Shown here: in pieces, positions 1 to 57,685 of the stretch
How positions within the stretch are numbered: position 1 is the first letter of the stretch
Layout: each line of letters begins with the position of its first letter
Origin: Corallococcus soli
GTDB lineage: Bacteria; Myxococcota; Myxococcia; Myxococcales; Myxococcaceae
NCBI RefSeq assembly: GCF_014930455.1
Contig: NZ_JAAIYO010000002.1
Span: forward strand, 310,001 to 374,000
DNA length: 64,000 nucleotides
Direction: 5' to 3'
Translations under genes and position numbers: made by a program
Notes under the pieces: generated by a model
Told to the model about the DNA's origin: nothing
Database searches by the model: none
Seen by the model: the letters and a program-made list of their open reading frames with translations, nothing else

Positions 1-350
1 AGCAGCCGGCGGTAGTCCTCGCTCGCGTATTGACTGCCGCAGGCGGAGTGATGGGGCCGGTGAGTGTCAAGGTAGTTGTGTGATGCCTGGAGGAAGCCAT
101 GGACCCGTAGGGTGAAAGTCCCGAGGCGGCAACAGGTCGAAGCCGCAGAGCTGGGGTGGCGCCGACAGGGGAGACCCCTGCGGTGAAGCCCACCGACAAA
201 GCCCCGTCTCAGCGAGGTGAGCGAGTGCGCGGGCCGTAACGACGCGTGACTGCCCAGTCGAGGCCCCGTCAATTGATGCCTCCGGGTGCCGAGCCGCCAC
301 AACTACGGCGAAGGCAGCAGGGCGTCCCCGCAGAATGACCGAGGGGCCGC
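1..350 (+). other. Possible group II intron domain I remnant
   Basis: No protein-coding frame looks real here. The stretch carries purine-rich, structured blocks (GGGTGAAAGTCCC near 109-121 and several GC-rich complementary pairs) of the kind seen in the 5' ribozyme half of bacterial group II introns, and the next features are insertion-sequence debris. I see no reverse transcriptase gene and no domain V, so if it is an intron it is a 5' fragment cut off by the left window edge or by later insertions. It could equally be unrelated intergenic DNA. The call rests on motif resemblance only. Confidence 0.25.
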
Positions 351-42513: not shown

Positions 42514-42529
42514 CATGTCAAAACAGAAC

Positions 42530-42609
42530 GGCCGGGACACACGCGGAAGTACGCTACCGTTGCTTCCTTCCGGACCTGGCGGGGTTCGCGCCCCCACGTT
42601 GTCCCGACC
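42530..42609 (-). ncRNA. ffs: Small bacterial SRP RNA (4.5S)
   Basis: On the minus strand the apical domain carries the invariant CCAGGTCCGGAAGGAAGCA. The ends pair over 10 bp (GGTCGGGACA with TGTCCCGGCC, one G-U). The ~80-nt hairpin fits the small 4.5S type that binds Ffh. It is last in a minus-strand run of serS, tRNAs and tadA, and a strong hairpin follows. Confidence 0.92.
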
Positions 42610-42636
42610 ACAAACCTGTTACTTCGAAGCTAACAA

Positions 42637-42723
42637 CGGAGAGGGTGGGATTCGAACCCACGATACCCTTTCAGATATGCACGCGTTCCAGGCGTGTGCC
42701 TTCAACCGCTCGGCCACCTCTCC
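42637..42723 (-). tRNA. tRNA-Ser (anticodon GGA)
   Basis: This 87-nt class II tRNA has acceptor GGAGAGG/CCTCTCC, anticodon loop CTGGAAC with GGA, a long variable arm and T-arm GGTTCGAATCC. It reads UCC/UCU. It is adjacent to the SRP RNA and tRNA-Ser(CGA). Confidence 0.95.
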
Positions 42724-42736
42724 AAGGACATTGGAG

Positions 42737-42823
42737 CGGAGAGCGTAGGATTCGAACCTACGGTACCGTTACCGGTACGCCTGATTTCGAGTCAGGTGCC
42801 TTCGACCACTCGGCCAGCTCTCC
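42737..42823 (-). tRNA. tRNA-Ser (anticodon CGA)
   Basis: This 87-nt class II tRNA has acceptor GGAGAGC/GCTCTCC, anticodon loop CTCGAAA with CGA and a long variable arm. It reads UCG. It starts 6 bp after the tadA stop codon. Confidence 0.95.
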
Positions 42824-42829
42824 AAGTAT

Positions 42830-43297
42830 TCAGTTTTCACGTCGCTTCGCGCGCAAGCGCTCGAAGAACGTCTTGAGAAGCTGGCGAGAGTCCTCCGCCA
42901 GGATACCGCTTGTGACCTGGAGCCGGTGGTTGTGTCGCGGCTCCTCTACGAGATTGTACAGCGAACCGACCGCGCCCGCCTTGGGGTCCATCGTACCAAA
43001 GACGAGCCGGGTGACACGAGACTGCACCAACGCGCCGGCGCACATGGCGCACGGCTCCAGCGTCACATACAGGGTGACGCCAGAGAGGCGCCAGGCACCG
43101 CGTGCTTTCGCAGCGGCATCCAGCGCGAGCATCTCTGCGTGGGCGAAGGGGTTTCGGTCGCACTCGCGCCGGTTGAAGCCCGTGCCCACGACGTTTCCGT
43201 CCAGCACCGCTACCGCACCGACGGGTACTTCTCCGAGTGAAGCTGCTTCCCGCGCGAGCACAAGTGCCTGCTGCATGAAAGCGATGTCGTCACTCAT
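42830..43297 (-). CDS. tadA: tRNA-specific adenosine deaminase TadA
   Basis: This 155-aa zinc deaminase converts A34 to inosine in tRNA-Arg(ACG). The zinc site and catalytic Glu are in AHAEMLAL, with the two cysteines in EPCAMCAGAL. NPFAHAE and FGTMDPKAGAVGSLYNLVEE are typical of TadA rather than cytidine deaminases. Its substrate gene, tRNA-Arg(ACG), is 30 bp upstream on the same strand. Placement inside a tRNA array suggests cotranscription and liberation of its mRNA by tRNA processing. Confidence 0.96.
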   Translation of the reverse strand: MSDDIAFMQQALVLAREAASLGEVPVGAVAVLDGNVVGTGFNRRECDRNPFAHAEMLALDAAAKARGAWRLSGVTLYVTLEPCAMCAGALVQSRVTRLVFGTMDPKAGAVGSLYNLVEEPRHNHRLQVTSGILAEDSRQLLKTFFERLRAKRREN

Positions 43298-43327
43298 GAG
43301 TCCTGCGCCACAAAAAAAAGAAGATGG

Positions 43328-43401
43328 CGCTCCCTGGAGGATTCGAACCTCCGGCCTTCGGATTCGTAGTCCGACGCTCTATCCAGCTGAGCTAAGGGAG
43401 C
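43328..43401 (-). tRNA. tRNA-Arg (anticodon ACG)
   Basis: This 74-nt tRNA has acceptor GCTCCCT/AGGGAGC, anticodon loop CTACGAA with ACG and T-arm GGTTCGAATCC. It reads CGU, CGC and CGA only after A34 is deaminated to inosine by TadA, encoded directly downstream. Confidence 0.95.
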
Positions 43402-43432
43402 AATGTCTTCCGGTGCTGCTTACGACAAGTGG

Positions 43433-43519
43433 CGGAGAGAGAGGGATTCGAACCCTCGATACCCTTACGAGTATGCAGGTTTAGCAAACCTGTGCCTTCA
43501 GCCTCTCGGCCATCTCTCC
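43433..43519 (-). tRNA. tRNA-Ser (anticodon GCT)
   Basis: This 87-nt class II tRNA has acceptor GGAGAGA/TCTCTCC, anticodon loop TTGCTAA with GCT and a long variable arm. It reads AGC/AGU. Confidence 0.95.
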
Positions 43520-43561
43520 AACTGTTCTCTGTCAAAGAACCGTGAAACTCAAGCCCAAAAT

Positions 43562-43648
43562 CGGAGGCGGTAGGATTCGAACCTACGGAAGGCTTTCACC
43601 TTCTGCGGTTTTCAAGACCGCTGCCTTCAACCGCTCGGCCACGCCTCC
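43562..43648 (-). tRNA. tRNA-Ser (anticodon TGA)
   Basis: This 87-nt class II tRNA has acceptor GGAGGCG/CGCCTCC, anticodon loop CTTGAAA with TGA and a long variable arm. It reads UCA (and, by wobble, other UCN codons). It is the first tRNA after serS. Confidence 0.95.
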
Positions 43649-55109: not shown

Positions 55110-55964
55110 ATGCTGGAGCGTTTCAGCGACAAGGTGAAGAAGGGCCTGCGCGGCTGGACCGAGCGCATGGCGGGCGAAGCACAATCCGGCGAGCTCCAGG
55201 GCCTGGCCCGGACGGAGAACGAGTACGGGGTGGATCCGTTCGGGTTCAACCTGGACTACAGCCTGGCGGCCATCGCCCCGTTCCTGTGGCTCTACCGCCA
55301 CTACTTCCGCGTGGAGGCCTACGGCGCGGACCGCATCCCCGCCGGGCGCGTGCTGCTGGTGTCCAACCACTCCGGCCAGCTGCCCATGGACGGCGCGATG
55401 ATTGGCATCGCCCTGATGGTGGAGGGCTCTCCGCCGCGCGCCATCCGCAGCATGGTGGAGAAGTGGGTGCCGTCGCTGCCCTACGTCTCCACCTTCATGG
55501 CGCGCGTAGGCCAGATTGTCGGCACGCCGGAGAACTGCCGCCGCCTGCTGGAGGCCGAGGAGGCCATCCTCGTGTTCCCCGAAGGCACGCGCGGCCTCAA
55601 CAAGCTGTGGCCCCAGCGCTACCAGCTCCAGGAGTTCGGCCTGGGCTTCATGCGGCTGGCCCTGGAGACGAACACGCCCATCGTCCCCATCGCCGTGGTG
55701 GGCGCGGAGGAGCAGGCCCCCGCGCTGATGAACTTGAAGCCCCTGGCGAAGCTTCTGGGCATGCCGTCCTTCCCCATCACGCCCACGGGCGCGGCCTTCC
55801 CGCTGCCCACGAAGTACCGGATCTACTTCGGAGACGCGCTGCACTTCACCGGCCGCGCGGACGACGAGGACAGTGAACTCGACAAGAAGGTGCGCACCGT
55901 GAAGGCCTCCATCCAGGGGATGCTCCAGCAGGGGCTCAAGGAACGCCGGAGCGTGTTCTGGTGA
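55110..55964 (+). CDS. Lysophospholipid acyltransferase (PlsC-like)
   Basis: This 284-aa protein follows the ribosome-binding site AAGGAG. The acyltransferase block I is NHSGQLPMDG, with six rather than the usual four residues between His and Asp. Block III is FPEGTRGLNKLW, and block IV (NTPIVPIAVVGAEE) is present. It probably transfers fatty acyl groups to a glycerolipid. Its TGA overlaps the GTG start of the SDR gene (GTGA), so the pair is translationally coupled. Confidence 0.87.
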   Translation: MLERFSDKVKKGLRGWTERMAGEAQSGELQGLARTENEYGVDPFGFNLDYSLAAIAPFLWLYRHYFRVEAYGADRIPAGRVLLVSNHSGQLPMDGAMIGIALMVEGSPPRAIRSMVEKWVPSLPYVSTFMARVGQIVGTPENCRRLLEAEEAILVFPEGTRGLNKLWPQRYQLQEFGLGFMRLALETNTPIVPIAVVGAEEQAPALMNLKPLAKLLGMPSFPITPTGAAFPLPTKYRIYFGDALHFTGRADDEDSELDKKVRTVKASIQGMLQQGLKERRSVFW

Positions 55965-56926
55965 GCGCCCCGCACGAGGAGGAGAAGGAGGGCGGGGACG
56001 CGAAGAAGCCCGCCGTCGTCGTCACCGGCATCAGCGGCAACCTGGGCCGCACCCTGGCGAAGATGCTGCACAAGCGCGAGCGCATCATCGGCATCGACCG
56101 GCGCCCCTTCCTGGGCAAGCCGAAGGACGTCGAGATGCACCAGATGGACCTGCGCAAGAAGAAGGCGGAGGACGTCTTTCGCAAGAACGAGATCCGCGCC
56201 GTCATCCACATGGGCATCATGCACGACCCGCGCATGAGCGAGGAGGAGCACCACTCCTTCAACGTCGTGGGCACCACGCGCCTGCTGGAGTACTGCGCGA
56301 AGTACGGCGTGAAGAAGGTGGTCGTCCTGTCCTCGGCCAACGTCTACGGCCCCAGCCCGGACAACTCCAACTTCCTCACCGAGGACGCGCCGCTGATGGC
56401 CGCCAGCCGCTTCTCCGGCGTGCGCGACCTCATCGAAGTGGACATGCTGGCGCACAGCTTCTTCTGGAAGCATCCGCACATTGAGACGGTCATCCTGCGG
56501 CCCGTCCACATCGTCGGGCCCACCATCAAGAACGCGCCGTCCAACTACCTGCGGCTGCGCTACCCGTGGACGCTCGCGGGCTTCGACCCGATGGTGCAGC
56601 TCATCCACGTGGAGGACGTGGCGCGCGCGATGGTGGAGGCCCTGCGCCCGGAGCCCAAGGGCGTCTACAACGTCGTCGGCCCCGGCCAGGTGCCCCTGTC
56701 CGCGGTGCTGGGAGAGCTGGGCCACACCGCCATCCCTGTGCCGCACCCGGTGGCCCGCCCGCTCCTGGGCCTGATGTTCCGCTACCGCCTGGCCAACTTC
56801 CCGCCCCCGGAGCTGGACCACATCCAGTTCCTCTGCGCCGTGGACGGCAACCGGTGGGTCCAGGACGTCGGCTGGAAGTCCCGGTACTCCATGCGCGACA
56901 CCATCCGCTCCGTGGTGGGCGAGTAG
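55961..56926 (+). CDS. Extended SDR (NAD-dependent epimerase-like) with altered catalytic residues
   Basis: This 321-aa protein has the NAD-binding VVVTGISGNLGRTLAKML (GxxGxxG), a GIDRR beta-2 end and SSANVYGPSP. Where extended SDRs carry the catalytic YxxxK, this one reads FSGVR (SRFSGVRDLIEVDML), so both Tyr and Lys are replaced by Phe and Arg. The rest of the fold (VILRPVHIVGP, VQLIHVEDVARAMVEALRP, VYNVVGPGQVPLSAVL) is intact. It may bind a nucleotide or lipid without redox catalysis, or use different residues. Coupled translation with the acyltransferase suggests a joint role in lipid metabolism. Confidence 0.82.
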   Translation: MSAPHEEEKEGGDAKKPAVVVTGISGNLGRTLAKMLHKRERIIGIDRRPFLGKPKDVEMHQMDLRKKKAEDVFRKNEIRAVIHMGIMHDPRMSEEEHHSFNVVGTTRLLEYCAKYGVKKVVVLSSANVYGPSPDNSNFLTEDAPLMAASRFSGVRDLIEVDMLAHSFFWKHPHIETVILRPVHIVGPTIKNAPSNYLRLRYPWTLAGFDPMVQLIHVEDVARAMVEALRPEPKGVYNVVGPGQVPLSAVLGELGHTAIPVPHPVARPLLGLMFRYRLANFPPPELDHIQFLCAVDGNRWVQDVGWKSRYSMRDTIRSVVGE

Positions 56927-56957
56927 CGGATTTCCCATGGGCCGCCCCCGTATCCCC

Positions 56958-57016
56958 TGACACGGATGTCATTGGGAGGGTGGTGGGGTGGCAGGGGGCC
57001 CCTGACAGGACTGTCA
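56958..57016. promoter_or_regulatory. Two TGACA-N4-TGTCA operators (enhancer-type sites)
   Basis: Identical dyads TGACA-N4-TGTCA occur at 56958-56971 and 57003-57016, 45 bp centre to centre. The second extends to CCTGACAG-GA-CTGTCAGG. They lie about 95-145 bp upstream of the sigma-54 promoter at 57105, the usual distance for enhancer-binding proteins. They probably bind the activator or a repressor of the sRNA. Confidence 0.65.
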
Positions 57017-57104
57017 GGAGGGGCCCGGTGGTGGTGGGGGGCTCGGGCACGCAAGTGTTTGATTTCCCAGGGAGGCTGAGGGCGGGGCAGGGGGGCGCGA
57101 AGGT

Positions 57105-57120
57105 TGGCACCACCCTTGCT
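57105..57120 (+). promoter_or_regulatory. Sigma-54 promoter (-24/-12)
   Basis: TGGCAC-N5-TTGCT matches the sigma-54 consensus TGGCAC-N5-TTGC exactly, with correct GG-GC spacing. Transcription should start near 57131 on the plus strand. No coding gene begins downstream; a terminator follows ~125 bp later, defining a small RNA. Confidence 0.85.
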
Positions 57121-57130
57121 CATGTCCCTG

Positions 57131-57260
57131 GCAACACGGCGAGGTCGCAGCGGGCCTGAGCAACACCGCGCGGCACCGTCACCCTGGTAGGGGGTTCCAT
57201 TGGGGAACCCTCGACGCCCACCGTCTCGGCCGGCCCCGAGGCGGTGGGCGACTTTTTTTC
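57131..57260 (+). ncRNA. pxr: Sigma-54-dependent ~130-nt sRNA, Pxr-like
   Basis: The transcript from the sigma-54 promoter to the oligo-T terminator is about 130 nt. It folds into a GC-rich 5' region (57131-57180), a middle hairpin (GGGTTCC/GGAACC, ~57190-57211) and a long terminator hairpin. This matches what I remember of Pxr, the 132-nt sigma-54-dependent RNA that blocks fruiting-body development in fed Myxococcus xanthus and is conserved in Cystobacterineae. I recognise it by architecture and size, not by alignment. It ends against the convergent lipoprotein gene. Confidence 0.65.
57211..57259 (+). terminator. Rho-independent terminator of the sRNA
   Basis: A stem CGCCCACCG / CGGTGGGCG with an inner CTCGG/CCGAG stem is followed by seven T residues (57253-57259). 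It is an unusually complete intrinsic terminator for this GC-rich genome. Confidence 0.9.
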
Positions 57261-57685
57261 TACTCCAGCTCGCCCGCGAACGGGCCCGCCTGCTGCTTCT
57301 CCAGCAGCCAGACGCCGTCCCGGAAGACGAACTCCGAGGTGACGGCCTCGGTCTGTTCGGAGGCGGAGGGCAGGCGCATCCACTGGATGCGGCTGTGGAC
57401 GGTGGCGCGCTTGCCGTCCTCGGAGAGCTTCACGGATTCGATTTCGTAGTCCGTGACGGTGAGGTCGCGGTCGTCGTGCAGCTCGCGGCGCTGGCGCTCG
57501 AAGTCCTGGCGCTCCTCGGGGACGAGGAAGGTGGACAGGGCGCGGTAGTTGCGCCAGCGCAGGTTCTTGTGGAAGCCCTCCACGACGGGGCGGAGCGCGT
57601 CCAGGTCCGAGGACGGCGGCGTGTGGGCGCACGCCCCACCGAGGAGCAGGGCGAACATCAGGGCAGGCAGGCGGTTCACCTGCAC
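57260..57685 (-). CDS. Small lipoprotein of unknown function
   Basis: This 141-aa protein has lipoprotein signal RLPALMFALLLGGACAH (lipobox GGAC). A single domain follows (VVEGFHKNLRWRNYRALSTF, DLTVTDYEIESVKLSEDGKR, ATVHSRIQWMRLP), reminiscent of NTF2-like or DUF folds that carry an alpha+beta cone; I cannot name the family. Its stop codon touches the T-tract of the convergent sRNA terminator, so the two transcripts end together. Confidence 0.75.
   Translation of the reverse strand: MQVNRLPALMFALLLGGACAHTPPSSDLDALRPVVEGFHKNLRWRNYRALSTFLVPEERQDFERQRRELHDDRDLTVTDYEIESVKLSEDGKRATVHSRIQWMRLPSASEQTEAVTSEFVFRDGVWLLEKQQAGPFAGELE

Follow-up and report, generated by a model that had tools for sequence, protein, structure and literature searches.

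A stretch of intergenic DNA of Corallococcus soli carries a predicted sigma-54-dependent small RNA (sRNA) gene whose product, as judged from comparative sequence analysis, is a new RNA family. The family is of a known kind, is distinct from the Pxr sRNA and has no Rfam entry. The window, that is the whole stretch of 64,000 nucleotides that was analysed, covers positions 310001-374000 of contig C2 of a 9.4 Mb genome, and all window coordinates below refer to it.

A predicted sigma-54-dependent sRNA gene

The intergenic region runs from an SDR/epimerase-like gene through two dyads and a sigma-54 promoter to the predicted RNA, which is followed by a convergent gene. The features are as follows.

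55961-56926: SDR/epimerase-like gene, upstream neighbour of the RNA
56958-56971, no strand: distal dyad TGACACGGATGTCA, probable enhancer site (read from the sequence; paired and conserved in homologs)
57003-57016, no strand: proximal dyad TGACAGGACTGTCA, lying 102 bp upstream of the -24 element
57105-57119, plus strand: sigma-54 promoter TGGCAC-N5-TTGC, TGGCACCACCCTTGC (read from the sequence)
57131-57259, plus strand: predicted small RNA, ~129 nt (promoter position and T run; fold z -3.7)
57138-57180, plus strand: HP0, hairpin in the 5' leader (loop GGGCC), restricted to relatives with long leaders
57190-57212, plus strand: HP1, 9-bp hairpin with the pentaloop AUUGG (AUNGG in the family; alignment and covariation)
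57215-57250, plus strand: HP2 and terminator stem, 15 bp, apex CGG-CCGGCC-CCG (terminator scan and covariation)
57253-57259, plus strand: T run of the terminator (sequence and terminator scan)
57260-57685, minus strand: hypothetical gene, convergent with the RNA

The first-pass annotation had described an sRNA gene with a -24/-12 element, a span of ~130 nt, a terminator and two identical dyads 45 bp apart, and most of this description was borne out. The promoter element matches the consensus TGGCACG-N4-TTGC(T/A) as printed in PMC7910581 and places the predicted +1 at 57131, from which the end of the T run at 57259 gives a length of 129 nt. The terminator scan returned one terminator, a stem of 15 pairs at 57215-57250 and then the T run, where 0.3 are expected in shuffles, and the fold of the 130-nt RNA is 3.7 sd better than dinucleotide shuffles. 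A sequence scan detected no sigma-70-type promoter at the locus. The dyads have identical arms and stand 45 bp apart, start to start, but their 4-base spacers differ, so that they are not identical throughout. With a -24/-12 promoter, upstream activator sites and a terminator all present, the locus fits the general kind of a sigma-54-dependent sRNA gene. The dyads are probable enhancer-type sites, since the pair is kept in homologs at above-chance frequency; for their activator we found no name.

Elsewhere in the window there is a group II intron D1-D4 match (89 bits; 106-244, plus strand), and an ordinary small SRP RNA lies beside five tRNA genes (42522-43648, minus strand).

The RNA is distinct from Pxr

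The first-pass annotation had also named the RNA as probable Pxr, an identity suggested by the sigma-54 promoter, the terminator, the similar size and the myxobacterial host. A different locus, however, fits the Pxr primers and the Pxr neighbourhood. According to PMC5684412 and PMC5568312, pxr is directly downstream of the NtrC-like gene pxrR/nla19, and one Pxr primer from PMC5684412 finds a single place in this genome with 1 mismatch, C1:1113201, which sits ~0.3 kb behind a sigma-54 activator gene. Three of the four Pxr primers have 1-2 mismatches at the C1 place versus 7-8 at the window locus, while the fourth fits neither (8 mismatches at each). The window RNA gene follows the SDR/epimerase-like gene and not an NtrC-like pxrR/nla19. 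BLASTN between the two RNAs, the alignment that had been suggested as a check, gave matches of 7-10 nt only, and Pxr-like DNA is located elsewhere in 87/96 Myxococcaceae genomes, compared with 95/96 that carry the window RNA. Primer fits, neighbourhood and BLASTN thus refute Pxr as the family assignment, and we see virtually no chance that the window RNA is Pxr. The 265 bp upstream of pxr in this genome contain no TGACA-N4-TGTCA dyad, even with 2 mismatches allowed.

The window RNA resembles the Pxr of Myxococcus xanthus, a developmental switch that blocks the formation of fruiting bodies, in being myxobacterial, in its sigma-54 promoter, stem loops and terminator and in showing repeated copies in some genera, but differs from it in locus, neighbours, loops and sequence. 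The pxr gene of this genome was placed at C1:1113115-1113266 (L033, L201). Some genera, such as g3 and g6, carry as many as five repeats of Pxr-like DNA. By eye, 8 bases of HP1 (GGGGAACC, window 57202-57209) are complementary to the Pxr SL1 region of L033 (GGTTCCCC); this HP1 stretch is not conserved in Myxococcus HP1.

Distribution and copy number of the family

A DNA search found the window RNA in 16/16 genomes of the genus and in 102/145 genomes of the order, comprising 95/96 Myxococcaceae and 7 weak matches outside that family (E 2e-5 or worse). A covariance model made from 86 distinct rows was then applied to 195 genomes of the phylum with a cut-off of E<=0.001. It matched 102 of them, including 95/96 Myxococcaceae, 1 genome of family f7 and 5 of f8, where the f7 and f8 figures are match counts and not fractions; a partial match in f3 (E 7e-4) was taken as chance. 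The single Myxococcaceae genome with no model match, G069, is 79% complete. In a pattern scan of named genomes, the matches listed included Corallococcus, Myxococcus, Pyxidicoccus, Archangium, Hyalangium and Cystobacterineae records as well as many unrelated chance matches. In f7 the RNA follows the SDR gene; in f8, at the g23 loci and at a second copy in genome G057 it does not.

By the covariance model, the C. soli genome has one full copy of the RNA. It also has three weak matches (E up to 5), one of which is the reverse strand of the same hairpin. Genus g19 (Myxococcus/Pyxidicoccus type) has 2-4 copies in 27/27 genomes, and these are adjacent at ~71 bp in at least seven genomes inspected. 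M. xanthus strain AM003 has two modules. G057, G122 and G138 have two matches each, on different contigs, those of G122 being partial or at a contig end. The locus L323 (G057:C6:375223-375298) is a second, diverged copy with its own dyad and -24/-12 element, in which the stems differ and the loops are unchanged. L128 (BNCN01000011.1), titled Comamonas sp. KCTC 72670, holds three tandem copies of the myxobacterial RNA; the Comamonas label is probably wrong and the genome of the Myxococcus type.

No Rfam 15 family reached its gathering threshold in window 56920-57300. The sub-threshold match to ncS035 (E 0.002 for the 381-base stretch, 23 bits versus a threshold of 79) was taken as chance, as were those to Pab19, BLi_r0872, mir-204 and mir-2766. 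Our searches of the open-access literature turned up no recognisable description of the RNA, which may be listed in the survey of M. xanthus non-coding RNAs by Whitworth and Swain 2020 (cited in PMC8538405).

Two hairpins with fixed apical motifs

The core alignment was built from 90 candidate rows, from which 4 judged false by eye (L010:933-1008, L039:3917-3992, L040:4017-4092 and L193:1901-1976) were removed. In the 86 rows that remained, which are distinct sequences and not independent species, some genomes being present under two names, 94.9% of cells are paired, 14/24 pairs have double changes and there are 182 doubly changed cells versus 55.7 in shuffles. Further pair types are not beyond shuffles (61/500 shuffles reach the observed value). 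An alignment fitted to the covariance model, with 21 distinct rows from three families, is 96.0% paired and has 17 pairs with double changes and 75 doubly changed cells versus 22.3 in shuffles. Two pairs (columns 9-25 and 40-57) are often unpaired. Changes in the 76-column core follow the stems, and a coding reading is disfavoured.

The loops are fixed. The HP1 loop reads AUNGG in 22/22 rows, while its closing pair varies between C-G, A-U and G-C, and the HP2 apex CGGCCGGCCCCG (CGG-CCGGCC-CCG) is identical in 22/22; outside the loops these 22 rows hold no fixed unpaired stretch. The first rows were gathered by a pattern that required much of the apical motifs, with up to 4 changes allowed, and the f7 and f8 rows are the fairer test of fixed loops because they were found by the model. 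As demonstrated by these alignments, the RNA core comprises two predicted hairpins that are kept by compensatory changes and carry two fixed apical motifs.

Folded alone, the window RNA gives the same two hairpins, HP1 and HP2, as the family core. For L038, whose RNA has three modules, the fold of the RNA by itself favours an extended pairing of the first module with the second, a result that gives no support to independent modules. The leaders at 22 loci are of several kinds: long ones of 55-59 nt that form a hairpin with a GGGC(C) loop (14 loci), short ones of 8-17 nt (5 loci) and others (3 loci).

The promoter and dyads accompany the RNA

We took a census of the upstream regions of the homologs, in which 85 rows included two false loci (L072 and L101, with no dyad) and gave 83 distinct upstreams after their removal. 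The -24/-12 element is strict in 80/83 and strict or loose in 83/83. A dyad with at most 1 mismatch occurs in 75/83, whereas a shuffled set of 85 yields 0.4. In 70 of these 75 the start of the proximal dyad is 99-113 bp ahead of the -24 element, and dyad pairs have a spacing of 45 bp in 43/48. The paired form was found in 34/96 Myxococcaceae genomes, and a control pattern gave 0 matches in the same 96.

The 8 upstreams with no such dyad consist of 5 with weaker TGACA-like sites and 3 g23 rows (L213, L214, L050) with GTTGC-N5-GCAAC-type dyads where TGACA-N4-TGTCA otherwise stands, and the TGACA operator is therefore not universal. The names of the g23 small-genome isolates are, as we take it, those of termite-gut bacteria. 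In f7 and f8, inspection by eye indicated that a TGACA-N4-TGTCR dyad is kept in 6/7 copies, and neither a clear dyad nor a promoter was seen upstream of the RNA in L318. The census demonstrates that the predicted promoter and, in the majority of homologs, one or two TGACA-N4-TGTCR dyads at a near-fixed distance travel with the RNA across genera and in two other families.

These data also bear on the idea that there is no separate RNA here and that the hairpins merely terminate the SDR operon or the convergent gene. In its favour, a terminator is there, and 57260 is where the convergent gene ends. Against it, a sigma-54 promoter accompanies the hairpins in all 83 upstreams and dyads do so in 75 of them, and HP1 is a covarying hairpin that is not the terminator. 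Together with the 2-4 repeated modules and the presence of the same RNA beside other genes in f8, this makes the terminator explanation very unlikely.

Dyad sites elsewhere and a putative regulon

The exact dyad TGACANNNNTGTCA occurs at 6 places in this genome, versus 1 for a reversed control pattern. Two of these are at the RNA locus, two lie between OMP-barrel and lipoprotein genes, and two are single sites on C7 and C12 that by eye fall inside apparent coding frames. A search of the genome for the dyad near other sigma-54 promoters had been proposed in the first-pass annotation, and it yielded this second pair, the only other one in the genome. The pair (C6:356156-356234) stands between a lipoprotein-like frame, for which no family was found, and an OMP-barrel gene (PF13505), and is flanked on either side by a sigma-54-like element (TGGCCCGCTTCGTGC and TGGCCGTGCCCTTGC), which gives the appearance of divergent promoters. 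It is found at the same locus in five Corallococcus genomes, one of which is cut off on the OMP side; in one genome the lipoprotein-side -24 reads CGGC.

Relaxed TGACA-N4-TGTCG sites number 11. Of these, 4 are followed after 69-98 bp by a sigma-54-like TTGC element; at 3 others there is nothing beyond a weak TGGC-N9-GC match (at 30, 54 and 168 bp), and the remaining 4 have no sigma-54-like element downstream. The four sites with a TTGC element lie before the following frames.

OMP-like gene (27.3 bits, below Pfam's 28.7)
Membrane-protein-like frame (no family)
Cysteine-rich frame (no family)
Short frame (TTGC-type element in a weaker TGGT form)

The putative regulon perhaps has members beyond the C6 locus, at these single, relaxed sites. 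The apparent link of the dyad-bearing genes to the envelope is fair but soft.

Candidate activators

This genome has 49 sigma-54 activator matches, 43 of them above 160 bits; strong activators number six per g23 genome and five to seven in the small f8 genomes. Our comparison covered 42/44 of the genome's own loci (without L282 and L285) and 15/18 g23 loci (without L241, L242 and L243), and hence five of the six g23 groups; in completeness, two of the f8 genomes reach 89% and one of the g23 genomes 88%. Within this scope, two orthologue groups are present in both clades.

The NtrC-type response regulator encoded at C7:133774-135177 has orthologues with 72% identity in two g23 genomes and 63-66% in three f8 genomes. 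Its recognition helix reads IAARTIYRKL here and in 2/3 f8 genomes, ISPRTIYRKL in the third, and IATRTIYRKL in g23, whose dyad is a different one. The gene is located before gspC-D-E-F (type II secretion), and the region upstream of gspC (L375:6691-6853) contains a perfect sigma-54 promoter, TGGCACCTGCCTTGC. Within 160 bp it also holds three TGACA/TGTCA half sites versus 0.18 expected, a comparison made only once the sites had been noticed. No full TGACA-N4-TGTCA dyad within 2 mismatches was found in the 13 kb around this regulator, where only half sites occur, and the g23 gspC regions likewise have no full dyad and have kept their TGACA half sites although the RNA dyads changed. No orthologue was found among the proteins recovered from G127 (g23), and the regulator is rated lower as activator for that reason. 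We put it forward tentatively, as a possible activator of the RNA.

The activator might instead be the FHA-type enhancer-binding protein at C7:151008 (L258). No other group was recovered from each of the six small genomes (three g23, three f8), in which its identities are 51-53% (g23) and 42-43% (f8). Its recognition helix, however, is unchanged in g23, where the dyad changed, and different in f8, where the dyad is the same, a pattern opposite to that of the dyad, and we regard L258 as a rather unlikely activator. The published sites of NmpR (GCGCA-N5-TGCGC) and Nla28 (CT(C/G)CG(C/G)AG) do not fit the dyad. The enhancer-binding protein L281, ~7 kb from the OMP/lipoprotein locus, is not favoured; its best small-genome match is 34%.

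Proposed mode of action

The reading that we favour, with slightly more than an even chance, is that of a trans-acting sRNA under one enhancer-binding protein and sigma-54, with an envelope regulon and an action based on its loops. One enhancer-binding protein would bind the dyads and, with sigma-54 RNA polymerase, would switch on the RNA and a few envelope genes, namely the OMP-barrel and lipoprotein genes and perhaps the second OMP-like gene and the membrane-protein gene. With less certainty, the RNA may work through its hairpin loops rather than through a linear seed. The most likely form of such action is that the loops bind and titrate an RNA-binding protein, in which case the 2-4 modules of g19 might offer it more sites to bind; the fixed loops and the copy number are the two arguments for titration.

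The same gene and control could also serve a Qrr-type antisense regulator, whose loops, with the HP0 GGGCC loop where present, would kiss mRNAs, for example those of envelope proteins. Fixed loops fit loop-loop pairing as well as they fit protein binding, and published sigma-54 sRNAs such as Qrr (PMC10162802) and Pxr act on mRNAs. On the other hand, there is no fixed unpaired stretch outside the loops, loops of 5-6 nt are short seeds, and Hfq is reported absent from myxobacteria in PMC5684412 and PMC5568312. An antisense role is possible but less likely.

The Qrr sRNAs of Vibrio have a sigma-54 promoter, upstream dyads for the activator LuxO (TTGCA-N3-TGCAA) and a terminator. The window RNA shares the promoter, the activator-type dyads and the terminator, but its operator is TGACA-N4-TGTCA and not of the LuxO type, its repeats are adjacent modules, and neither a conserved linear pairing region nor an Rfam match at threshold was found for it. 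CrcZ and CrcY of Pseudomonas and Azotobacter are sigma-54 sRNAs thought to titrate protein by repeated motifs, which in CrcZ are unpaired A-rich motifs for Hfq/Crc. The titration by repeated motifs proposed here would be similar, whereas the motifs would be fixed hairpin loops in a group of bacteria from which Hfq is reported absent. GlmY of Escherichia coli, as described in PMC7073468, has a sigma-54 promoter, is driven by a response regulator and acts as a RapZ decoy. The sigma-54 promoter, the proposed response-regulator activator and the proposed protein binding are points of likeness to GlmY; the overlapping sigma-70 promoter of GlmY is absent here, and the window RNA has no Rfam match.

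Pxr was the sole myxobacterial sRNA of established function to emerge from our searches of the open-access literature. In a more far-reaching picture, the window RNA would be an sRNA of nearly all myxobacteria, more widespread than Pxr and preserved even in genomes of 2.1-2.7 Mb, that titrates an RNA-binding protein via its AUNGG and CCGGCC loops with a valency set by the module number, forms the RNA arm of a sigma-54 envelope/secretion regulon and is partly why sigma-54 is vital in Myxococcus xanthus; as a whole, we consider this picture a long shot. The family, present in 95/96 sampled Myxococcaceae with a clean promoter, a rare operator and few candidate envelope genes, would provide a direct route to the activator and a route to how bacteria reported to be without Hfq use sRNAs. 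Deletion of sigma-54 is reported to be lethal in M. xanthus (PMC12316311), and, given that report, a sigma-54 output as widely kept as this one is a candidate to examine for essentiality.
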